This document shows, piece after piece, positions 29,622 to 50,319 of a stretch of 64,000 nucleotides of DNA. Origin of the DNA: Nonomuraea sp. NBC_00507. Lineage in GTDB: Bacteria; Actinomycetota; Actinomycetes; Streptosporangiales; Streptosporangiaceae. Where the stretch lies: positions 4,278,001 through 4,342,000 of the forward strand of contig NZ_CP107853.1 of NCBI RefSeq assembly GCF_036013525.1, given 5' to 3'. The notes under the pieces are model-generated. The model saw only the letters and a program-made list of their open reading frames with translations, was not told the DNA's origin and made no database searches. Made by a program: the position numbers and the translations under genes. The first letter of the stretch is position 1. Each line of letters starts with the position of its first letter.

Positions 29622-31472
<1,851 letters not shown>

Positions 31473-31614
31473 GATGACGTCTCGCTCTGTGTCGTGGGGT
31501 CGGCCGCGCGAAGTCGCGACCACTTAAGTCTAGTTGATCCCCTCTCATGGCAAGAGCGGCACGAGATGACGGCGAGCGTAAGCGCGGGCGTCCTCGTCGT
31601 TGCCGACCGGGGCT

Positions 31615-31658
31615 GCACCTCGGCCGCACCTCGGCTGCACCTGGGGCGCACCTCGGCT
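31615..31658. repeat. Four tandem 11-bp units
   Basis: Four consecutive copies of GCACCTCGGCY occur at 31615-31625, 31626-31636, 31637-31647 (GCACCTGGGGC) and 31648-31658, in the 253-base gap between typA and the first shortened ANL gene. Confidence 0.8.
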
Positions 31659-31675
31659 GCAGCTACATAGAGGGT

Positions 31676-31719
31676 TGCACATTTGTGCGCATGGCAATGG
31701 TCGGGCCGGTCCCTAGATT
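31676..31719 (+). promoter_or_regulatory. Leaderless-type promoter of the first shortened ANL gene, with upstream element
   Basis: TAGATT (31714-31719) lies six bases before the ATG at 31726, so the transcript should begin at or next to the start codon; no ribosome-binding site is present. TGCACATTTGTGCGCATG (31676-31693) lies 20 bases upstream and resembles a block at the same distance before the second shortened ANL gene. Confidence 0.55.
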
Positions 31720-31725
31720 GTCGGC

Positions 31726-32478
31726 ATGACGTGGACAGAGCTGGTTATGACGTCGGCGCCGACGAAAGGTGACCAGCCGGCGGTGAGCGATGTCAGGACC
31801 GGTGAGGTGTTGTCGTACGCCGCGTTCGTGCGCCGCGTCACGCGTGCCGCGGCGGGCCTGCGCCGCCACGGCCTCCAGCAAGGCGAGCACGTGATCGTCG
31901 ACGTCCCGCTCGGTGTGTCGTTGCCCGTCGCGGTCCACTCCGTCGCCTGGGCCGGTGGGATCGCGGCACTCAGGTCCACCGGCAAGGCCCGCATGATGAT
32001 CACCTTGCGCGACTACGATCCGGCGGCCGTAAAGGCCGATCGGGTCTTCGCCTTCCGTCCGGGGCCGGGTGTCAGGCCGTTCGGTGAGTTGCTGGTCAGC
32101 GGTGCCGTGGACTTCGGTCCACTGGCGGGTCCCGCGCTCACGCTCGACGGCGCGCGCGTCTTCGACCACATCGAGCTGGCCGGCGACCTGCGCAGGGTGG
32201 CCACGCGCCTGGTGATCGGCAAGGACGACGTGGTGATCAGCGCGGTCAGCGAGCCGTTCACAGGTCTGCGGGTGCTGGACCTGGCGATGATGGCCGGCGC
32301 CCACGTCGTGCTCGCGCACGACCCCAGCGTGGTCGGGTGCCGCGTGCTGGCCGAGGAACACCGAGCCACCATGATCATCGCCCCTTACGACCTGGCCAGG
32401 CGGCTGCTCGGCGACCCCATCCTCGCGTTCGTGCGCGTCGTGGACGAGAGGGCGGTCGTCAGCTCACTCCGCCGGTGA
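31726..32478 (+). CDS. Shortened adenylate-forming (ANL) N-terminal-domain protein lacking the P-loop
   Basis: 250 residues that follow the fold of the N-terminal domain of acyl-CoA ligases/AMP-binding enzymes: LSYAAFVRRVTRAAAGLRRH, HSVAWAGGIAALRSTG, then IGKDDVVISAVSEP, LDLAMMAGAHVVLAHDP and EEHRATMIIAPYDLARRL. The ATP-binding P-loop, which in active enzymes (S/T-GTTG-PKG) lies just before this second block, is absent at about residues 143-150, and the protein stops before the A5-A10 motifs and the C-terminal domain. It is thus very unlikely to adenylate a substrate. Codon use is normal and the frame is intact, so it looks maintained, not a decaying fragment. A scaffold or ligand-binding role is possible. 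Confidence 0.75.
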   Translation: MTWTELVMTSAPTKGDQPAVSDVRTGEVLSYAAFVRRVTRAAAGLRRHGLQQGEHVIVDVPLGVSLPVAVHSVAWAGGIAALRSTGKARMMITLRDYDPAAVKADRVFAFRPGPGVRPFGELLVSGAVDFGPLAGPALTLDGARVFDHIELAGDLRRVATRLVIGKDDVVISAVSEPFTGLRVLDLAMMAGAHVVLAHDPSVVGCRVLAEEHRATMIIAPYDLARRLLGDPILAFVRVVDERAVVSSLRR

Positions 32479-32483
32479 CCGTC

Positions 32484-32508
32484 CAGGGGCCCGCGGGTGC
32501 GGCCCCTG
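32484..32508 (+). terminator. Stem-loop after the first shortened ANL gene
   Basis: CAGGGGCC (32484-32491) and GGCCCCTG (32501-32508) pair perfectly six bases past the stop codon, separating this gene from the LuxR-type regulator. Confidence 0.6.
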
Positions 32509-32570
32509 AGGTCGTGGGCTGTGAAACACTGTGCGAAAAGGGTGATCCTTCAGCGACGCAGGGTGACCAG

Positions 32571-34985
32571 ATGCCAGAGCCCCCCAGGCACAACCTTCCC
32601 GCAGAGCCCAACCGGTTCGTCGGCCGCGAACGCGATGTCGACGATCTCCGCAGGTTGTTCGGCGAGACGCGGGTCGTGACCTTGTGCGGGGTCGGCGGCA
32701 TCGGCAAGACCCGGCTGGCCCTGCGGGTCGCGGCGGGGCTGCTGTCCCGCTATCCCGACGGGGTCTGGCTGGTCGAGCTGGCCAGGCTGCGCCGGGCCGA
32801 GCTGGTCGTGCCGGAGATCGCCCGTGTGCTGCGGGTGCACCAGGAGGTCAACCGGCCGCTGCTCGACACCGTGACGGCCAGGCTGCGCGACCTGTGCTGC
32901 CTGCTGCTGCTCGACAACTGCGAGCACCTGGTCGACACGTGCGCCGAGGTGACGGCCGGGCTGGTGGCCTCCTGTCCGCGGCTGAGCGTCCTGGCCACCA
33001 GCAGGGAGCCGCTGCGCATCGCCAGCGAGCTGATCTGGCGGGTGCCGCCGCTCGATCTGCCCGACGCGGAGAGCGCCGACGCCGAGTCCGTGCAGTTGTT
33101 CCTGGACCGGGCGGCGGCCGCGGGCACCAGGCCGGGCCCTGGCGGCCTGTCCGACGTCATACGCCTGTGCCGGGCACTGGATGGGCTGCCGCTGGCCCTG
33201 GAGCTCGCCGCGGCCCGTACGAGCCTGCTCAGCCCCGGGCAGATCGCCGACCGCATCGACGACCGCTTCTCGCTGCTCACCACGGGTGGCCGCACCGCCC
33301 CCGCCCGGCAGCGCACACTGGCGGCGGCCGTCGAGTGGAGCCACGACCTGCTGTCGGCCAAGGAGCAGGTGCTGCTGCGCCGGCTGTCGGTGTTCGCCGG
33401 GGCCTTCGACCTGGATCTGGCCGAGCAGGTCTGCGCGGAGCAACCCATCGCGCCCGCGGATTTCGTGGACCTGCTGGGCAGCCTGGTCGACAAGTCGCTC
33501 GTGTTGTGCGACGAGAGCCGCACGCGCTATTGGCTGCTGGAGACCATCAAGCGTTACGCGCTCGAACGACTCCAGCAGGCCGGCGAGCGCGATGCGCTGC
33601 GCGAGCGGCACCTCCACGTGCTCTGTGAGCTGCAGGCGCGCCACTTCGCGACGGAGATGGTCGAGCCCGGCGTGCCGTGGCGCGAACGCCTGCGGGCACT
33701 CACCGCGAGCCGGAGCCTGCTCGACGATCAGCGGGTGGCGCTCGACTGGGCCGCCGAATCCGGGGACGTGTCACGGGGGCTGCACCTCTGCGCGACCAGC
33801 ACCGGGCTGCTGCCGATCGGCGGCCTCACAGAGGTCGTCGCCTGGATCGAGCGCCTGCTCTCGCTCGACCTGTCCTGCGTGCCGGCCGAGCGGATCGCGC
33901 ACGCCAAGGCGTACCTGGCCTATGGCCTGGAGGCGCGCGACGAGCTGAGCCGCTCGCTGGAGGTGGCCGAGGAGAGCCTGGCCGGGATGTCTCCGGTGGA
34001 CGCGTTCTCCCGCAGCGCCATACTCAACACCATCGCGACGGTGCTGCTCCGCATGGGCCGGGCCGACGAGGCGCTGCGCTACGCGGAGGAGGGCCTGGCC
34101 GTAGCCGTCCGCTCCGGCGACCTCTGGAACCAGGCGGCGGGGCTGGCCGGGCTGTCAGCGGTGGCCCTGACCCGCGGCCGGGTGCGCGAGGCCCAGCGGC
34201 ACGCCGAGGAGGCGCTCGCCCGAGCCCGCGAGCACGGCCACCGCTGGATCATGGCCGGGGCCGCGGCCCAGCTCGGCGCGGTGGCCGAGGCGCGCGGCGA
34301 CCTGGCGACGGCCGAGGCCCACTACACGATGGCCGTCCCCTGGCTGCGGGAGCTGGGCAGCCGCGCCGACCTGGCCCGCTGCCTGGCCAGGATCGGCCGG
34401 GTCGCGGCGATGTCGCACGAGTTCGGCCTCGCCAGGGAGCGGCTTGCCGCGAGCCTCGCGCTGAGCAGGCAGACCGGGCAACGCCGGGGGGTGGCCCGCT
34501 GTCTCGCGGGGCTGTCGGTGCTGGCGGAGCACGAAGGCGACCTGGAGGGCGCCGTGCTGACCGCCGCGGCGGCGGCCGCGCTCCGCGAGTCGATCGGGCA
34601 ACATTCGCCCACGATCAGGATCGAGGAGCTGCTCGGCAGGGCCCGTGCCAAACTGGGGGCGGGCCGCACCCTGTCGCTGTGGTCGCGTGGCCGGGCTATG
34701 AGCGCGGACGACGCCGCCCGCCACGTGCTGGAGGGCGAGCGCCCGGCGAGCGAGATTCCGGTGGCCGCCGAGCCCGTCAGGCACTCGCTCCTGACCGCCC
34801 GCGAGCACGAGATCGCCGGCCTGCTCACCCGCGGCCTGTCCAACCGGGCCATCGCGGAGGAGCTGGTGATCAGCCCGGCCACGGTCGCCCGGCATATCGC
34901 CAACATCATGGAAAAGCTCGGCTATACCTCCCGCGCGCAGATCGCGGTCTGGGCGGCCGAGCACTCTTCGAACCCGTCTGCATAG
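32571..34985 (+). CDS. Large ATPase regulator with TPR-like repeats and LuxR-type HTH
   Basis: 804 residues. Order: NB-ARC/AAA-like ATPase (FVGRERDVDDL, Walker A GVGGIGKT at residues 40-47, Walker B LLLLDNCEHL near 110, sensor VLATSREPLR), a winged helix/linker, a helical TPR-like region (about 400-680) and a C-terminal LuxR HTH (LTAREHEIAGLLTRGLSNRA, then EELVISPATVARHIANIMEK). This is the signal-dependent regulator architecture common in secondary metabolism and stress control. ATG 32571 is the first plausible start, though no strong ribosome-binding site is seen. It is flanked by two shortened ANL genes, which are its most likely targets. Confidence 0.9.
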   Translation: MPEPPRHNLPAEPNRFVGRERDVDDLRRLFGETRVVTLCGVGGIGKTRLALRVAAGLLSRYPDGVWLVELARLRRAELVVPEIARVLRVHQEVNRPLLDTVTARLRDLCCLLLLDNCEHLVDTCAEVTAGLVASCPRLSVLATSREPLRIASELIWRVPPLDLPDAESADAESVQLFLDRAAAAGTRPGPGGLSDVIRLCRALDGLPLALELAAARTSLLSPGQIADRIDDRFSLLTTGGRTAPARQRTLAAAVEWSHDLLSAKEQVLLRRLSVFAGAFDLDLAEQVCAEQPIAPADFVDLLGSLVDKSLVLCDESRTRYWLLETIKRYALERLQQAGERDALRERHLHVLCELQARHFATEMVEPGVPWRERLRALTASRSLLDDQRVALDWAAESGDVSRGLHLCATSTGLLPIGGLTEVVAWIERLLSLDLSCVPAERIAHAKAYLAYGLEARDELSRSLEVAEESLAGMSPVDAFSRSAILNTIATVLLRMGRADEALRYAEEGLAVAVRSGDLWNQAAGLAGLSAVALTRGRVREAQRHAEEALARAREHGHRWIMAGAAAQLGAVAEARGDLATAEAHYTMAVPWLRELGSRADLARCLARIGRVAAMSHEFGLARERLAASLALSRQTGQRRGVARCLAGLSVLAEHEGDLEGAVLTAAAAAALRESIGQHSPTIRIEELLGRARAKLGAGRTLSLWSRGRAMSADDAARHVLEGERPASEIPVAAEPVRHSLLTAREHEIAGLLTRGLSNRAIAEELVISPATVARHIANIMEKLGYTSRAQIAVWAAEHSSNPSA

Positions 34986-34990
34986 GCATC

Positions 34991-35034
34991 TGCATATTCC
35001 GCCCCATGTACGCATGAGACGCCCTCCCTACCGT
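34991..35034 (+). promoter_or_regulatory. Leaderless-type promoter of the second shortened ANL gene
   Basis: TACCGT (35029-35034) lies seven bases before the ATG at 35042. TGCATATTCCGCCCCATG (34991-35008) shares 12 of 18 bases with the element before the first shortened ANL gene and has the same 20-base distance to the -10, so the two genes are probably co-regulated. Confidence 0.55.
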
Positions 35035-35041
35035 GGGCGGC

Positions 35042-35434
35042 ATGGATGAGCGCGTCGTCATCGTGGACTCGGACACAGGACTGAGGCTCACCGAGGAGCA
35101 GCTGGACGAGAGGTCAGCTGCCGCGATCATCCAGTTGCGGCGCAGGGGCGTGCGGGTGGGCGACACCGTGCTCATCTGCCTGCCGGTCGGGCCCGATCTG
35201 CTGGTGGCGGCCGACGCGGTGATCGCCGTGGGCGGCGTGGCCTGGCCGGTGCCGGCCGACCTCGAGACGTGGGCGCTCCATGAACGCATTGAGGCCAGCG
35301 GGGCCCGCGTGCTGATCTCCGACCTCCCGCAGGCGCTGGAGGCGGCCGAGGAGTCCCGTGTGCGGATCGTCATGAGCGTCGCAGACCTCAGCGCCCTCCA
35401 GGCCGCCCGCGAGGCGGACGCCGAGCGAGCATAA
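35042..35434 (+). CDS. Very short ANL N-terminal-domain-like protein
   Basis: 130 residues, corresponding to only the first subdomain of an acyl-CoA ligase-like protein: GLRLTEEQLDERSAAAIIQL, RRRGVRVGDTVLICLPVGPD, ADAVIAVGGVAWPVPADLET and SGARVLISDLPQA. It ends before the P-loop position. There is an intact frame, normal codon use and an ATG that fits a leaderless mRNA. It cannot be an enzyme of the family. It may work with the 250-residue protein on the other side of the LuxR regulator, or be a remnant. Confidence 0.65.
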   Translation: MDERVVIVDSDTGLRLTEEQLDERSAAAIIQLRRRGVRVGDTVLICLPVGPDLLVAADAVIAVGGVAWPVPADLETWALHERIEASGARVLISDLPQALEAAEESRVRIVMSVADLSALQAAREADAERA

Positions 35435-35437
35435 GCT
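35432..35437 (+). promoter_or_regulatory. -10 box of the alpha/beta hydrolase gene (leaderless type)
   Basis: TAAGCT overlaps the stop codon of the preceding gene and lies seven bases before the ATG at 35445. No ribosome-binding site is visible, so a leaderless transcript is likely. Confidence 0.45.
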
Positions 35438-35444
35438 CGTATTC

Positions 35445-36197
35445 ATGCCTTTCGCGCCCAACTTCCCGGTCATGCTCAGGACTGAGGACGGGGTTCGCAT
35501 CGATGCGGCCCACACCCCGTCCGCGCGGACGGACCTCGGGATCGTGGTGGCGCACGGTTTCACCGGGTCGTGGCGGGAGCGTCCGGCGCGCCGCATCGTG
35601 CACGTGCTCAGCGGGTACGCCGGCGTGATCGCCTTCGACTTCCGCGGCCACGGGCGCTCCGGCGGCGAGACGACCGTGGGCGACCTGGAGGTGCTGGACG
35701 TGGAGGCGGCCGTCAGGCACGCGCGCGTGGTGGGCTACGAGAAGATCGCGGTGGTGGGGTTCTCCATGGGCGCGGCGGTGGCCGTACGGCACGCGGGGCT
35801 GCGTGGCGGGGTCGACGCGGTGGCGGCGGTGAGCGGCCCGGCCCGCTGGCACTACCGGGGCACCAAGCCGATGCGCCAGGTGCACTGGGTCATCGAGCAG
35901 CCGTTCGGGCGGTGGGCGGCCAGGGTGGCCAAGCGCACCAGGATCGCCCGCGGCCCGTGGGACCCGATCCCGATGCCGCCTTACGAGGCCGCCGCGCTCA
36001 TCTCTCCGACCCCTCTCCTGATCGTCCACGGCGACGCCGACACGTTCTTCCCGCTGGAGCACGCGCACCAGTTGTACGCCGGCGCACGCGAGCCCAAAGA
36101 GCTCTGGGTCGAGCCCGGGTACGGTCACGCCGAGGCCGCCGCGACCCCCGCACTCATCACCAGAATCGGCAAATGGATCTCCTCGAACTTTTTGTGA
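35445..36197 (+). CDS. Alpha/beta hydrolase
   Basis: 250 residues. The nucleophile elbow is GFSMGAAVAV, the oxyanion loop follows VVAHGFTGSW, the acid lies in LLIVHGDADTFFP and the catalytic His in GYGHAEAA. FDFRGHGRSGGE is the common strand-4/loop of esterases and lysophospholipase-like hydrolases. No signal peptide. The substrate is unknown. It begins ten bases after the short ANL gene and may share regulation with it. Confidence 0.88.
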   Translation: MPFAPNFPVMLRTEDGVRIDAAHTPSARTDLGIVVAHGFTGSWRERPARRIVHVLSGYAGVIAFDFRGHGRSGGETTVGDLEVLDVEAAVRHARVVGYEKIAVVGFSMGAAVAVRHAGLRGGVDAVAAVSGPARWHYRGTKPMRQVHWVIEQPFGRWAARVAKRTRIARGPWDPIPMPPYEAAALISPTPLLIVHGDADTFFPLEHAHQLYAGAREPKELWVEPGYGHAEAAATPALITRIGKWISSNFL

Positions 36198-36224
36198 GTA
36201 AAACACGTCTACCTAGAGCGGATG

Positions 36225-36268
36225 GAAGGAAACCGCCGGGAGAAAGTCCTTGGGGAAGGAAACCGTCG
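36225..36268. repeat. 15-bp direct repeat
   Basis: GGAAGGAAACCGCCG (36225-36239) recurs as GGAAGGAAACCGTCG (36254-36268), one mismatch, 29 bases apart, in the gap between two convergent genes. Confidence 0.6.
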
Positions 36269-36358
36269 ATGCGGTGGACGTGGGACATACTTCAGTAGTC
36301 AGGCGGTCGCCCAGCGTCGCGGGGGCGCGCTGGGTGGCATCCTGCCCATGCCCGCCGT

Positions 36359-36417
36359 GGGCCCCGCGAGACAACCGCGCGGGGCCCCGAGCCGGCCTCA
36401 CGGAGTGAGGCCGGCTC
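36359..36417. terminator. Two adjacent strong stem-loops between convergent genes
   Basis: The first stem pairs 36359-36368 with 36378-36387 (10 bp). The second pairs 36389-36401 with 36405-36417 (13 bp perfect, 3-base loop). They lie between the hydrolase and the aldehyde dehydrogenase and would stop transcription from both sides. Confidence 0.7.
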
Positions 36418-36424
36418 ACAGGCC

Positions 36425-37858
36425 TCAGCCGAGCCGCGCGATCGACTTGTACTCCAGGTAGCTCTGCAGGCCCTCGGGCCCCAGCTCGCGGCCGACGCCG
36501 CTGGCCTTGTAGCCGCCGAAGGGCGCGTTGGTCTCCAGCATGAAGCAGTTGACGCCGTACGTGCCGGTGCGCACCTGACGGGCCACCTCCATGCCGCGCT
36601 CGGTGTCGCCCGTCCACACCGTGCCGGCCAGGCCGTAGTCGCTGTCGTTGGCGATCCTGACGGCGTCGGCCTCGTCCTCGTACGGGATCACGGCCAGGAC
36701 CGGGCCGAAGATCTCCTCGCGGGCGATGCGCATGTCGTTGGTGACGCCGGCGAAGACGGTAGGGGAGACGTACCAGCCGCGGTCGTGGGGCCGGTCGAGG
36801 CCGCCGACGACGACCTTGGCGCCCTCGTCCATGCCGATCTTGATGTAGCCCTCCACCCGGTCCTGCTGCCGCTTGGCCACGAGCGGGCCGATGCCGGTCG
36901 CCGGGTCGGCGGGGTCGCCGACGGGCTGGGAGTTGACCATGTTCGCGATCGCCTCGACGACCTCGTCGTAGCGGTTGCGCGAGGCCAGGATGCGGGTCTG
37001 CGCCACGCACGCCTGCCCGTTGTTCATGAGGGAGGCCATCGACAGGAAGCCCATGCTGGCGGCCAGGTCGGCGTCGTCCAGGATGATCGCGGCCGACTTG
37101 CCGCCCAGCTCCAGGCTGACCCGCTTGAGCTGCTCGCCGCAGATGGCCGCGATGCGGCGGCCCGCCGCGGTGGAGCCGGTGAAGGCCACCTTGTCCACGC
37201 CCGGGTGGGAGATCAGGTGCTCGCCGACCTCGCGGTCGGCGGCCACGATGTTGAGCACCCCGGCGGGCACGCCCGCCTCCGCCACCCACTCGGCCAGCAG
37301 GTACGCGTCCAGCGGCGTCTCCGGCGCGGGCTTGAGCACGACCGTGCAGCCGGCAAGCAGCGCGGGCGCCAGCTTGGTCATCGTGACGAACTGCGGGACG
37401 TTCCACGGCACCACGGCCGCCACCACGCCCACGGGCTCACGCCGCACCGTGACCGGGCCGAACAGCCCGGGCCGCTGCTCCTCCTGCTCGTACGTCTTGC
37501 CCAGCTCCGCGTAGTACTGCAGCATGCCGAGTGGCTGCGGCGCCTGCGCGAGGCTGGAGAAGGTGATCGGCGAGCCCATCTCCTCCGTGATGAGCTGGGC
37601 CATCTCGCCCTGCCGCTCGTTGTAGATCGCGGCCAGCCTGCCGATGACCTCGGCCCGCTCGGCGAACGTCATCCGTGGCCACGGCCCGTGGTCGAACGCC
37701 TCACGGGCGGCCGCCACCGCGCGTTCCATGTCCGCGGCCGTGCCCTCCGGCACCCGGCCGACGACCTCCTCGGTGTGGGGTGAGACGACGTCGATCGTTC
37801 CCGTGCCCGCCGGGGCCACCCATTCGCCCCCGATGAACAGCGTGTCGTGCTGGCGCAT
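36425..37858 (-). CDS. Aldehyde dehydrogenase family protein
   Basis: 477 residues. NAD(P)-dependent oxidation of an aldehyde to its acid. Cofactor features are VVPWNVPQF, KPAPETPL and FTGSTAAGR, the catalytic Glu lies in LELGGKSA and the catalytic Cys in NNGQACVAQTR. The ATG at 37858 has AGGAGG eight bases upstream. TTGCTCGAGCAA (37890-37901), a perfect palindrome, sits in its promoter. The substrate is unspecified; the ALDH subgroup resembles those for geranial/betaine-type aldehydes only loosely. Confidence 0.9.
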   Translation of the reverse strand: MRQHDTLFIGGEWVAPAGTGTIDVVSPHTEEVVGRVPEGTAADMERAVAAAREAFDHGPWPRMTFAERAEVIGRLAAIYNERQGEMAQLITEEMGSPITFSSLAQAPQPLGMLQYYAELGKTYEQEEQRPGLFGPVTVRREPVGVVAAVVPWNVPQFVTMTKLAPALLAGCTVVLKPAPETPLDAYLLAEWVAEAGVPAGVLNIVAADREVGEHLISHPGVDKVAFTGSTAAGRRIAAICGEQLKRVSLELGGKSAAIILDDADLAASMGFLSMASLMNNGQACVAQTRILASRNRYDEVVEAIANMVNSQPVGDPADPATGIGPLVAKRQQDRVEGYIKIGMDEGAKVVVGGLDRPHDRGWYVSPTVFAGVTNDMRIAREEIFGPVLAVIPYEDEADAVRIANDSDYGLAGTVWTGDTERGMEVARQVRTGTYGVNCFMLETNAPFGGYKASGVGRELGPEGLQSYLEYKSIARLG

Positions 37859-49178: not shown

Positions 49179-49506
49179 GACTCGAGTGTGCCTACGGGCA
49201 CCGACAGTTCACCATCGATTATCGAGAGTAGTTGCTCGAATACGGATAGTAATATCTGCCTCGTCTACATATTGCCTTCTGCATCGTCGTATGGCCATGT
49301 CAATGCATGTGCGGCCCCCTTGCGTAGCTCTACGGTTGGGGACGCCGCGCAGCCGAGGGGCCGGACATCTTCGGAGGGGTGGGTGTCCGGCTCCGGGCGC
49401 GCGGCAGCGGGCTCGAGCCGCGCAGGGCTCGGGCCCGCCCAAGGCACAGAGGCCTCCATGGATCGGTGGACGCTGCGCCGTCCGGGGCGGTCGTACGTTG
49501 GCGGAT
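49179..49506. other. 328-base gap upstream of the ABC exporter and third ANL gene
   Basis: Bases about 49205-49295 are clearly richer in A+T than the rest of the window and contain a dyad TATCGAG/CTCGA-ATA (near 49220-49242). This is the likely divergent control region of the exporter. The second half returns to high GC and contains TACGTT (49494-49499). I see no supported gene. Confidence 0.5.
49494..49499 (+). promoter_or_regulatory. -10 box of the third shortened ANL gene (leaderless type)
   Basis: TACGTT lies seven bases before the ATG at 49507, the same geometry as for the other two shortened ANL genes. The TGCA...CATG block seen before those two is not found at 20 bases upstream here. 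Confidence 0.45.
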
Positions 49507-50319
49507 ATGCGGCCCGACGCCTCGGCCACCGTGATCAACGAGGTGTTCCACCGGGCCTACGAGCGCGGTGACCGGCCGGCGCTGGTCGACCTGCGCGGCG
49601 GCCACGTCTACGGTTATCGGCGGCTGGTGACCGAGGTGACCAGGGCGGCGTCCGGGCTCGTGCGCTGGGGCGCCAGACGCGACCAGGTCGTGGCCGTGCA
49701 CGTTTCGACGGCGGGGGCGCAGACGCTGGCCGTGCACACGGTGCTGGCGGCCGGAGGGGTGGCGGCGCCCATCGACCCCGCGCTCGGCGCCGAGGCCATG
49801 GCCGCCTGGCTGCTGGCCTGCGACGCACGCACCTTGATCACCACACCCGACCTGGCCGAGACGGCGAGGCAGGCGGCGCGCGGATCCCAGGTGCGGCAGG
49901 TCGTCTCGCTCGGTGCGGCGCTCGAGGCGATCGACTTTCGCGCCCTGCTCACGCTGGAGCCCACCGCGCTGCCCGCGCTCGACGCCGCGCGCCAGGACGC
50001 GTTGCTGCTGGCCGACGGCCGCCGCATGTCGCACGCGGCGCTGCTGGCCAGGATGGCCGAGCTCGACCGGCCCGTACGCCTGGCCGAGTCCGACGTGGTG
50101 CTGACCACGTGGCGGCCCGACGGCGGCTGCGACCTGCTCGCCCTCGTCGGTCTCGGCATGTCGAAGGGCGCTCTGGTGGTGGCCGCAGGTGATGATCTAC
50201 CCGGCGGCATCCAGGACTTCGCCGTCACCGTGGTGGCGGGCACCGAGGGCAGGCTGCAGCGCGTCCGCAGGAGCGGTCAGGGGGTGGCAGGGTGGAGGAG
50301 CGGCTCGCCGCGCACGTAG
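49507..50319 (+). CDS. Shortened ANL N-terminal-domain protein lacking the P-loop
   Basis: 270 residues. It follows an acyl-CoA ligase N-terminal domain: YGYRRLVTEVTRAASGLVRW, VLAAGGVAAPIDPALGAEAM, DARTLITTPDLAETAR, then ALLARMAELDRPVRLAESDV and GCDLLALVGLGMSKGALVVA. At the P-loop position (about residues 168-176) it reads LLADGRRMSHA; the glycine/threonine-rich loop and PKG Lys are missing while both flanks are kept, as if cut out. The C-terminal domain is absent. The 3' end overlaps the convergent dehydrogenase gene by 43 bases. It is catalytically dead by sequence; the role is unknown. Confidence 0.75.
   Translation: MRPDASATVINEVFHRAYERGDRPALVDLRGGHVYGYRRLVTEVTRAASGLVRWGARRDQVVAVHVSTAGAQTLAVHTVLAAGGVAAPIDPALGAEAMAAWLLACDARTLITTPDLAETARQAARGSQVRQVVSLGAALEAIDFRALLTLEPTALPALDAARQDALLLADGRRMSHAALLARMAELDRPVRLAESDVVLTTWRPDGGCDLLALVGLGMSKGALVVAAGDDLPGGIQDFAVTVVAGTEGRLQRVRRSGQGVAGWRSGSPRT

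Follow-up and report, generated by a model that had tools for sequence, protein, structure and literature searches.

The 64,000-nucleotide stretch of Nonomuraea sp. NBC_00507 analysed here (NZ_CP107853.1, positions 4,278,001 to 4,342,000; the window) contains two short proteins of the ANL superfamily, A and B, which flank an intact STAND/LuxR regulator, R, all on the + strand and with an alpha/beta hydrolase gene after B. Gene A (31726..32478) encodes a 250-aa and gene B (35042..35434, counted from its ATG) a 130-aa piece of the ANL N-terminal domain. R (32571..34985) is an 804-aa STAND-type ATPase with a TPR region and a C-terminal LuxR/GerE helix-turn-helix. A and R are separated by 92 bp, R and B by 56 bp, and B and the hydrolase gene by 10 bp. 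An operator-like element precedes both A and B. A third protein of the same kind, C (49507..50319, +), is the copy which the original prediction, made from this DNA alone, had placed at 49.5 kb. In the following, S denotes the set of short ANL pseudoenzymes including A, B and C, and R the linked STAND/LuxR regulator.

The short ANL proteins

Relatives were collected from the GTDB family of the organism. A C-type protein of Sinosporangium was searched against 200 family genomes and gave matches in 130 of them (E<=1e-6), short and full-length ANLs mixed. From the places found in this search and the places of A matches, 120 stretches were fetched, some of them from the same genome, and these loci (L065-L184) together with the window hold 124 short ANL genes. 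Genes in the loci were called with a custom script, which in the window set the start of A later (31783) and missed C. Nearly all homologues of A and B that carry a name are from Nonomuraea.

The ANL superfamily comprises acyl-CoA ligases, nonribosomal peptide synthetase (NRPS) adenylation domains and luciferases, from which A and B differ in having neither a P-loop nor a C-terminal domain nor the catalytic lysine, as both terminate inside the N-domain. Against the Pfam AMP-binding profile PF00501, A matched only positions 4-74 of 384 (E 2.5e-11) and B positions 10-136 of 384 (E 1.6e-15). In pairwise alignment with a full-length relative (L068), the P-loop TRGTTGPPK of the latter falls in a 9-residue gap in A and an 8-residue gap in C, with alignable sequence on both sides, and B stops ahead of it. 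The description of A and B as N-domain pieces flanking a LuxR-type regulator, with the sequence around the missing loop preserved in A, was thus correct. The gaps in A and C fit a precise loss of the loop, as suggested in the original prediction for A; outside the genus, short ANLs often have residues at these positions, without the motif. The canonical P-loop pattern, (S/T)(S/T/G)GTTGxPK, was found in none of the 124 short ANL genes and a relaxed pattern in two, one of which (L078) is a shortened relative of the full-length forms.

The AlphaFold models of both A and B are confident ANL folds with the fold of the N-terminal ANL domain. The model of A spans chain residues 18-329 of 1v25_B (507 aa) and that of B residues 13-144 of 8pyx_B. 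B matched A in its N-terminal half (E 6.8e-14) but had no match to the C-terminal half. An internal two-fold repeat in A, hinted at by the order of strands and helices in the model, found no support in the sequence (BLASTP E 1.8, profile-profile E 0.35).

The fetched loci also contain 11 full-length ANLs of the S group, 10 of them beside R. Near-canonical P-loops are still found in three (L068, L070, L073), and the catalytic lysine is replaced in all 11 (10 Arg, 1 Gln), because of which these proteins look like pseudoenzymes too; two unlinked control ANLs retain the lysine. In a tree of 88 sequences, S and the full-length relatives fell into a single clade (0.979) that excludes 11 other ANLs. 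Together with the grouping of the linked R genes described below, this fits a single origin. It is likely that a full-length ANL encoded beside R lost catalysis and was then trimmed to about three quarters (A) or a third (B) of its N-domain. When the seven best loci outside the family, among the matches listed for 345 genomes of the class, were opened, they contained full-length ANL frames except for L214, whose 302-aa frame retains the P-loop intact.

Loss of the P-loop, the C-domain and part of the pocket resembles decay, and the genes could be the remnants of former enzymes. The lengths of B genes are uneven (98-154 aa), 74-aa remnants of B are present in genomes G001 and G035, and individual B pairs reach a dN/dS of 0.98. 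An internal stop was flagged in five further B matches outside the dN/dS set (G039, G015, G051, G041, G001), and the sole stop in the B match of L248 is its last codon. We nevertheless regard decay as very improbable. No premature stop was found in the 30 best A and 30 best B places of Nonomuraea, for which median dN/dS was 0.28-0.35 (for B with dS saturated in 29 of 435 pairs), nor in 11 hand-picked C genes, whose median dN/dS was also well under 1. Purifying selection acts on A, B and C in Nonomuraea, and the maintained family of non-catalytic ANL proteins proposed in the original prediction is borne out. The confident folds of A and B and their nearly invariant promoters speak against decay as well.

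The lengths of the homologues agree with this. Their numbers (81 for A, 85 for B and 65 for C) show that the three genes are no chance finding. They were listed among proteins of 0.55-1.75 times the query length, a range in which full-length orthologues are not detectable; 76 of the 81 A homologues are 239-265 aa long, narrower than that range. A whole-genome search, in which full-length orthologues are detectable, gave a strong A match (E below 1e-60) in 49 of 54 Nonomuraea genomes, none with an internal stop. Full-length orthologues in close relatives, which would have indicated decaying fragments, were not found; the matches have the same short form and the same neighbours. A frameshift hiding the P-loop is also excluded, since only 92 bp separate A from R and 10 bp separate B from the next gene.

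The promoter element of S

The S promoters carry a tandem direct-repeat element which is almost exclusive to S genome-wide. It consists of a half-site CTRCAYA, a second half-site 12 bp on, about 9 bp and an ATG, followed after about 20 bp by a -10-like hexamer and, a few bases later, by the start codon. In alignments of upstream DNA, taken from 26 loci for A and 27 for B, a block ahead of the gene is nearly invariant and its flanks are scrambled. The element before A (31664..31693, +) reads TRCAYA-N5-YTRCAYA-N9-ATG, and the hexamer at 31714..31719 (+), conserved in Nonomuraea, lies 6 bp before the ATG of A. In the element before B (34979..35008, +) the first half-site overlaps the stop codon of R, and the hexamer (35029..35034, +) lies 7 bp before the ATG of B; a GTG at 35033 is an alternative start, which would give a 133-aa protein (35033-35434, +). 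The hexamers are putative -10 boxes, and the S transcripts of the window are predicted, from their sequence, to be leaderless. C-type units and the loci of S-R pairs have the same layout of the element.

The longer pattern had exactly two exact matches in the 12.9-Mb genome, before A and before B. A third exact match of a shorter pattern (C1:9475908) did not fit the longer one and was taken for chance. Sites with one mismatch gave no signal, as 49 places (23 + 26, three of them exact) were found compared to 77 (35 + 42) with the reversed control pattern.

In 54 Nonomuraea genomes all 112 exact matches were followed, on the same strand and no more than 250 bp downstream, by an S match, at a distance of 32-34 bp in 84 cases; the reversed pattern had no match in these genomes. 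R (E<=1e-105) and the element were present in the same 50 genomes and both absent from the other four (G011, G016, G032, G038). One of the latter, G038, keeps an A gene, which has no element before it.

The element could instead be bound by another regulator, or be the promoter of a special sigma factor, R being a mere neighbour. The binding of R to the element is a prediction, and some C loci without an adjacent R keep the element. We consider this explanation unlikely in view of the coincidence of R and the element in 54 of 54 Nonomuraea genomes (50 with both, four with neither) and of the missing element in G038. Moreover, where the element occurs without S, it adjoins an R homologue in four of the four readable cases; these homologues score 869-1034 bits, compared to 383-688 bits for unlinked paralogues of R.

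In the 1.64 Mb of fetched loci the 18-bp core of the element had 77 exact matches, 69 before a short ANL gene, one before a full-length ANL gene and the remaining seven between R and a short ANL gene, 443-574 bp from the called start. The 200 family genomes gave 76 matches in 62 genomes (one with the reversed control), 71 of them before S or a full-length relative. Four of the other five were beside an R homologue without recognisable S, and one (L319) was 195 bp from a contig end. None of the 311 genomes sampled from other families of the class (345 class genomes minus 34 of the family) had a match, compared to three matches of the reversed control in this sample.

Before C in the window a decayed form of the element, GGCACA-N5-CTCCATG-N9-ACG, is found at 49443..49472 (+). 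The element before C has been lost in this species and in the sister species G046. In the window species no R lies alongside C; R adjoins C in most of the fetched C loci of Nonomuraea. The decay of the element upon loss of R is only partial.

Some elements occur in other settings. Those of L315 (5334-5363), L317 (5326-5355) and L318 (5308-5337) point away from R and have no recognisable protein after them; S may have been lost there, or a different product may be made from the transcript. In L316 (5316-5345, - strand; G064) the element follows R, and the next gene on the same strand encodes the sugar-binding protein of an ABC transporter. A sugar ABC transporter of this type also follows the short ANL gene in L095, L097, L100 and L104, and C-type R units may also control sugar uptake.

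The regulator and its linkage to S

R has intact Walker A (GVGGIGKT) and Walker B (LLLLDNCE) motifs. Pfam matches were obtained with TPR_12 (E 9.3e-15) and GerE (E 3.6e-17), with TPR_MalT and the AAA/NB-ARC-like matches remaining below their cut-offs. Among 146 linked R genes the Walker A pattern was found in 134 and a narrow Walker B pattern in 81. R has the same STAND plan as MalT of Escherichia coli, i.e. a nucleotide-binding module, a superhelical/TPR sensor and a C-terminal LuxR-type DNA-binding domain. However, only the TPR and helix-turn-helix part matched the NCBIfam MalT model, with 46.7 bits (E 1.2e-12), far under the cut-off of 537 bits, and R does not classify as a MalT orthologue. 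The PADLOC defence models had no match to A, B, C or the hydrolase (E<=0.001) and matched only the helix-turn-helix and TPR pieces of R; a known anti-phage defence system, for which a match over a whole protein was looked for, was discarded as an identity of the locus. Rfam had no match at 31000-36500.

The original prediction named a tie to the regulator as one option, and this became the strongest part of the case, with the 112 of 112 elements described above and the linkage of the genes. An R homologue adjoins 114 of the 124 short ANL genes, directly or via a full-length ANL pseudoenzyme. R is immediately upstream on the same strand in 98 cases; the order R, full-length ANL, short ANL occurs in nine loci (L066, L070, L073, L076, L079, L081, L139, L142, L173), and R is immediately downstream in seven cases (six genes of the A type, and one B gene at the edge of its locus). 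One further short ANL gene lies at a locus edge, and R is not adjacent in nine. Among these nine are L078, with R followed by two short ANL genes, and L093 and L105, in which R is two genes off on the other strand. Conversely, an S match was found within 4 kb of every one of the 105 R hits (E<=1e-105) in 50 Nonomuraea genomes. The lineage that has the S-R unit is wider than Nonomuraea and extends through the GTDB family.

The 12.9-Mb genome has 26 R-like places including R (E<=1e-20), and no ANL gene was found in 20 stretches (4.5-6.5 kb) around 22 of the 25 others. In many Nonomuraea genomes a second STAND/LuxR regulator, absent from the window, lies between B and the hydrolase gene (e.g. L086 16929-19421, L089 1130-3760, L326 6814-8616), and in G041 R precedes an A-type gene (L090). 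The second R after B in many relatives and the R before an A-type gene suggest that each S once followed its own R. In other loci, for example L074, L075, L082, L083, L140 and L155, a single short ANL gene is preceded by two R genes in tandem, and the inner and outer copies form two separate clades of 38 and 37 members.

Several observations weigh against a general S-R unit joined by the element. The list of S comprises 132 typed places, to which one was added for the R-distance test, and leaves out matches in long open frames (NRPS, full-length ligases), repeat places and C of the window. At seven of the 133 places no R (E<=1e-105) lies within 4 kb, and C of the window is an eighth such place; one of the seven (G002) has R in a looser HMM test. 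A adjoins the hydrolase gene without R in G025 and G038 (L033, L101), L067 and L071. The exact element is missing at 20 of the 132 S places, and 138 of the 200 family genomes, many of which hold R and S, have no exact match, which means that the pattern misses divergent elements or that the element is absent there. In those loci with tandem R genes that have an exact match, the element is located about 380-575 bp before the called start of S, just after the inner R. L315-L318 hold R and the element without recognisable S, and the layout differs in L315, L317 and L318, where 120-195 bp separate R from an element that precedes it on the other strand. The R-less C loci mostly keep the element, apart from those of the window species and its sister, and L295, L297 and L086 retain 12-13 of the 14 half-site letters. 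Finally, the separation of the 146 linked R genes from 22 unlinked paralogues in a midpoint-rooted tree (support 0.79) favours the unit, with the unlinked sample drawn from the window genome alone.

The proposed circuit and its meaning

It is highly likely, judging from the position and distribution of the element, that R binds it and drives S. Activated R would oligomerise, bind the two half-sites and switch on the S transcript. In the window, A-R and B-hydrolase would be the only targets of R with an exact match, and as A precedes R, activation of A could also raise R. The hydrolase gene (35445..36197, +; GFSMG nucleophile motif), which starts 10 bp after B, is probably co-transcribed with it.

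We favour, with some confidence, a closed circuit in which R controls the non-catalytic protein S and S in turn probably acts on R. The return step, in which S acts on R as a protein partner, is put forward more tentatively and by analogy. S, which has no ATP site left, might be an inhibitor or a ligand-presenting subunit of R and use the remains of its acyl pocket. Multimerisation of MalT followed by cooperative binding to MalT boxes has been described (PMC4381067), as has its inhibition by proteins with enzyme folds, including a pyridoxal phosphate (PLP) enzyme and an esterase (PMC10427625). The role proposed for S is comparable to that of MalY and Aes, which with MalK are the inhibitors of MalT and hold it inactive. 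Compared to these partners, S is a piece of a dead ANL ligase whose interaction with R is proposed from genetic linkage, and the detectable targets of R are the genes of its partners rather than sugar genes.

It is a lesser but serious possibility that S is purely an output of R, working elsewhere on an acyl or aryl ligand or on a protein such as the hydrolase behind B, without feedback. The element points from R to S and not back, S persists in some genomes without an adjacent R, and in L033, L101, L067 and L071, which have lost R, A still adjoins the hydrolase gene. However, the P-loop is gone from S, and of the two detectable targets one, A, is followed 92 bp on by R itself, which fits a feedback circuit. 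In the four loci in question an A-type gene is followed by the hydrolase gene, with R and B absent (L067 6621-8293, L071 6741-8457, L033 346-2235, L101 7812-9341), and A and the hydrolase may have a tie of their own.

S could also be the non-catalytic subunit of a full-length ANL enzyme or of the hydrolase, with R as a bystander. A full-length ANL lies between R and S in nine loci, and the hydrolase gene is a neighbour of A or of B in Nonomuraea and of A also in L067 and L071. We find this improbable, as the full-length ANLs of the S group are without the catalytic lysine in 11 of 11 cases and as the hydrolase cluster was not seen beside the listed C-type or distant units, whereas R is found there.

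The proposed closed circuit resembles other cases in which a STAND ATPase has a dead enzyme fold as its partner. In plants, pseudokinases are the pseudoenzyme adaptors of ZAR1, a STAND/NLR immune receptor. The fold and the kingdom are different and R is a transcription factor, so that the likeness is one of logic only. None of the titles obtained in literature searches, which covered few of the subscription journals, concerns a pair of a regulator and a pseudo-ANL protein. The parts are known, and the new feature is that ANL proteins without catalysis are tied to a STAND regulator and have a private operator.

Behind the plain annotation as AMP-binding protein or ligase there appears to be a family of pseudoenzymes which is maintained and has a regulator and a promoter code to itself. 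Immune receptors and regulators, MalT among them, belong to the STAND proteins, and a STAND regulator whose sole detectable targets are its dead-enzyme neighbours provides a compact, testable case of the acquisition of a pseudoenzyme partner. Stages in the reduction of a catalytic domain can be seen in living genomes, from the loss of the active loop and of the second domain to that of much of the fold, with selection acting throughout. It is conceivable, and offered with due reserve, that across the family an ANL ligase has become the dedicated signalling subunit of a STAND receptor, whose regulon would be its own pseudo-ANL partner and the gene behind it, and whose activity the partner would set via the leftover acyl/aryl pocket. 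If true, this would amount to a receptor/pseudoenzyme circuit complete in itself, which Nonomuraea has at up to three loci, with a partner trimmed there to as little as a third of the N-domain.

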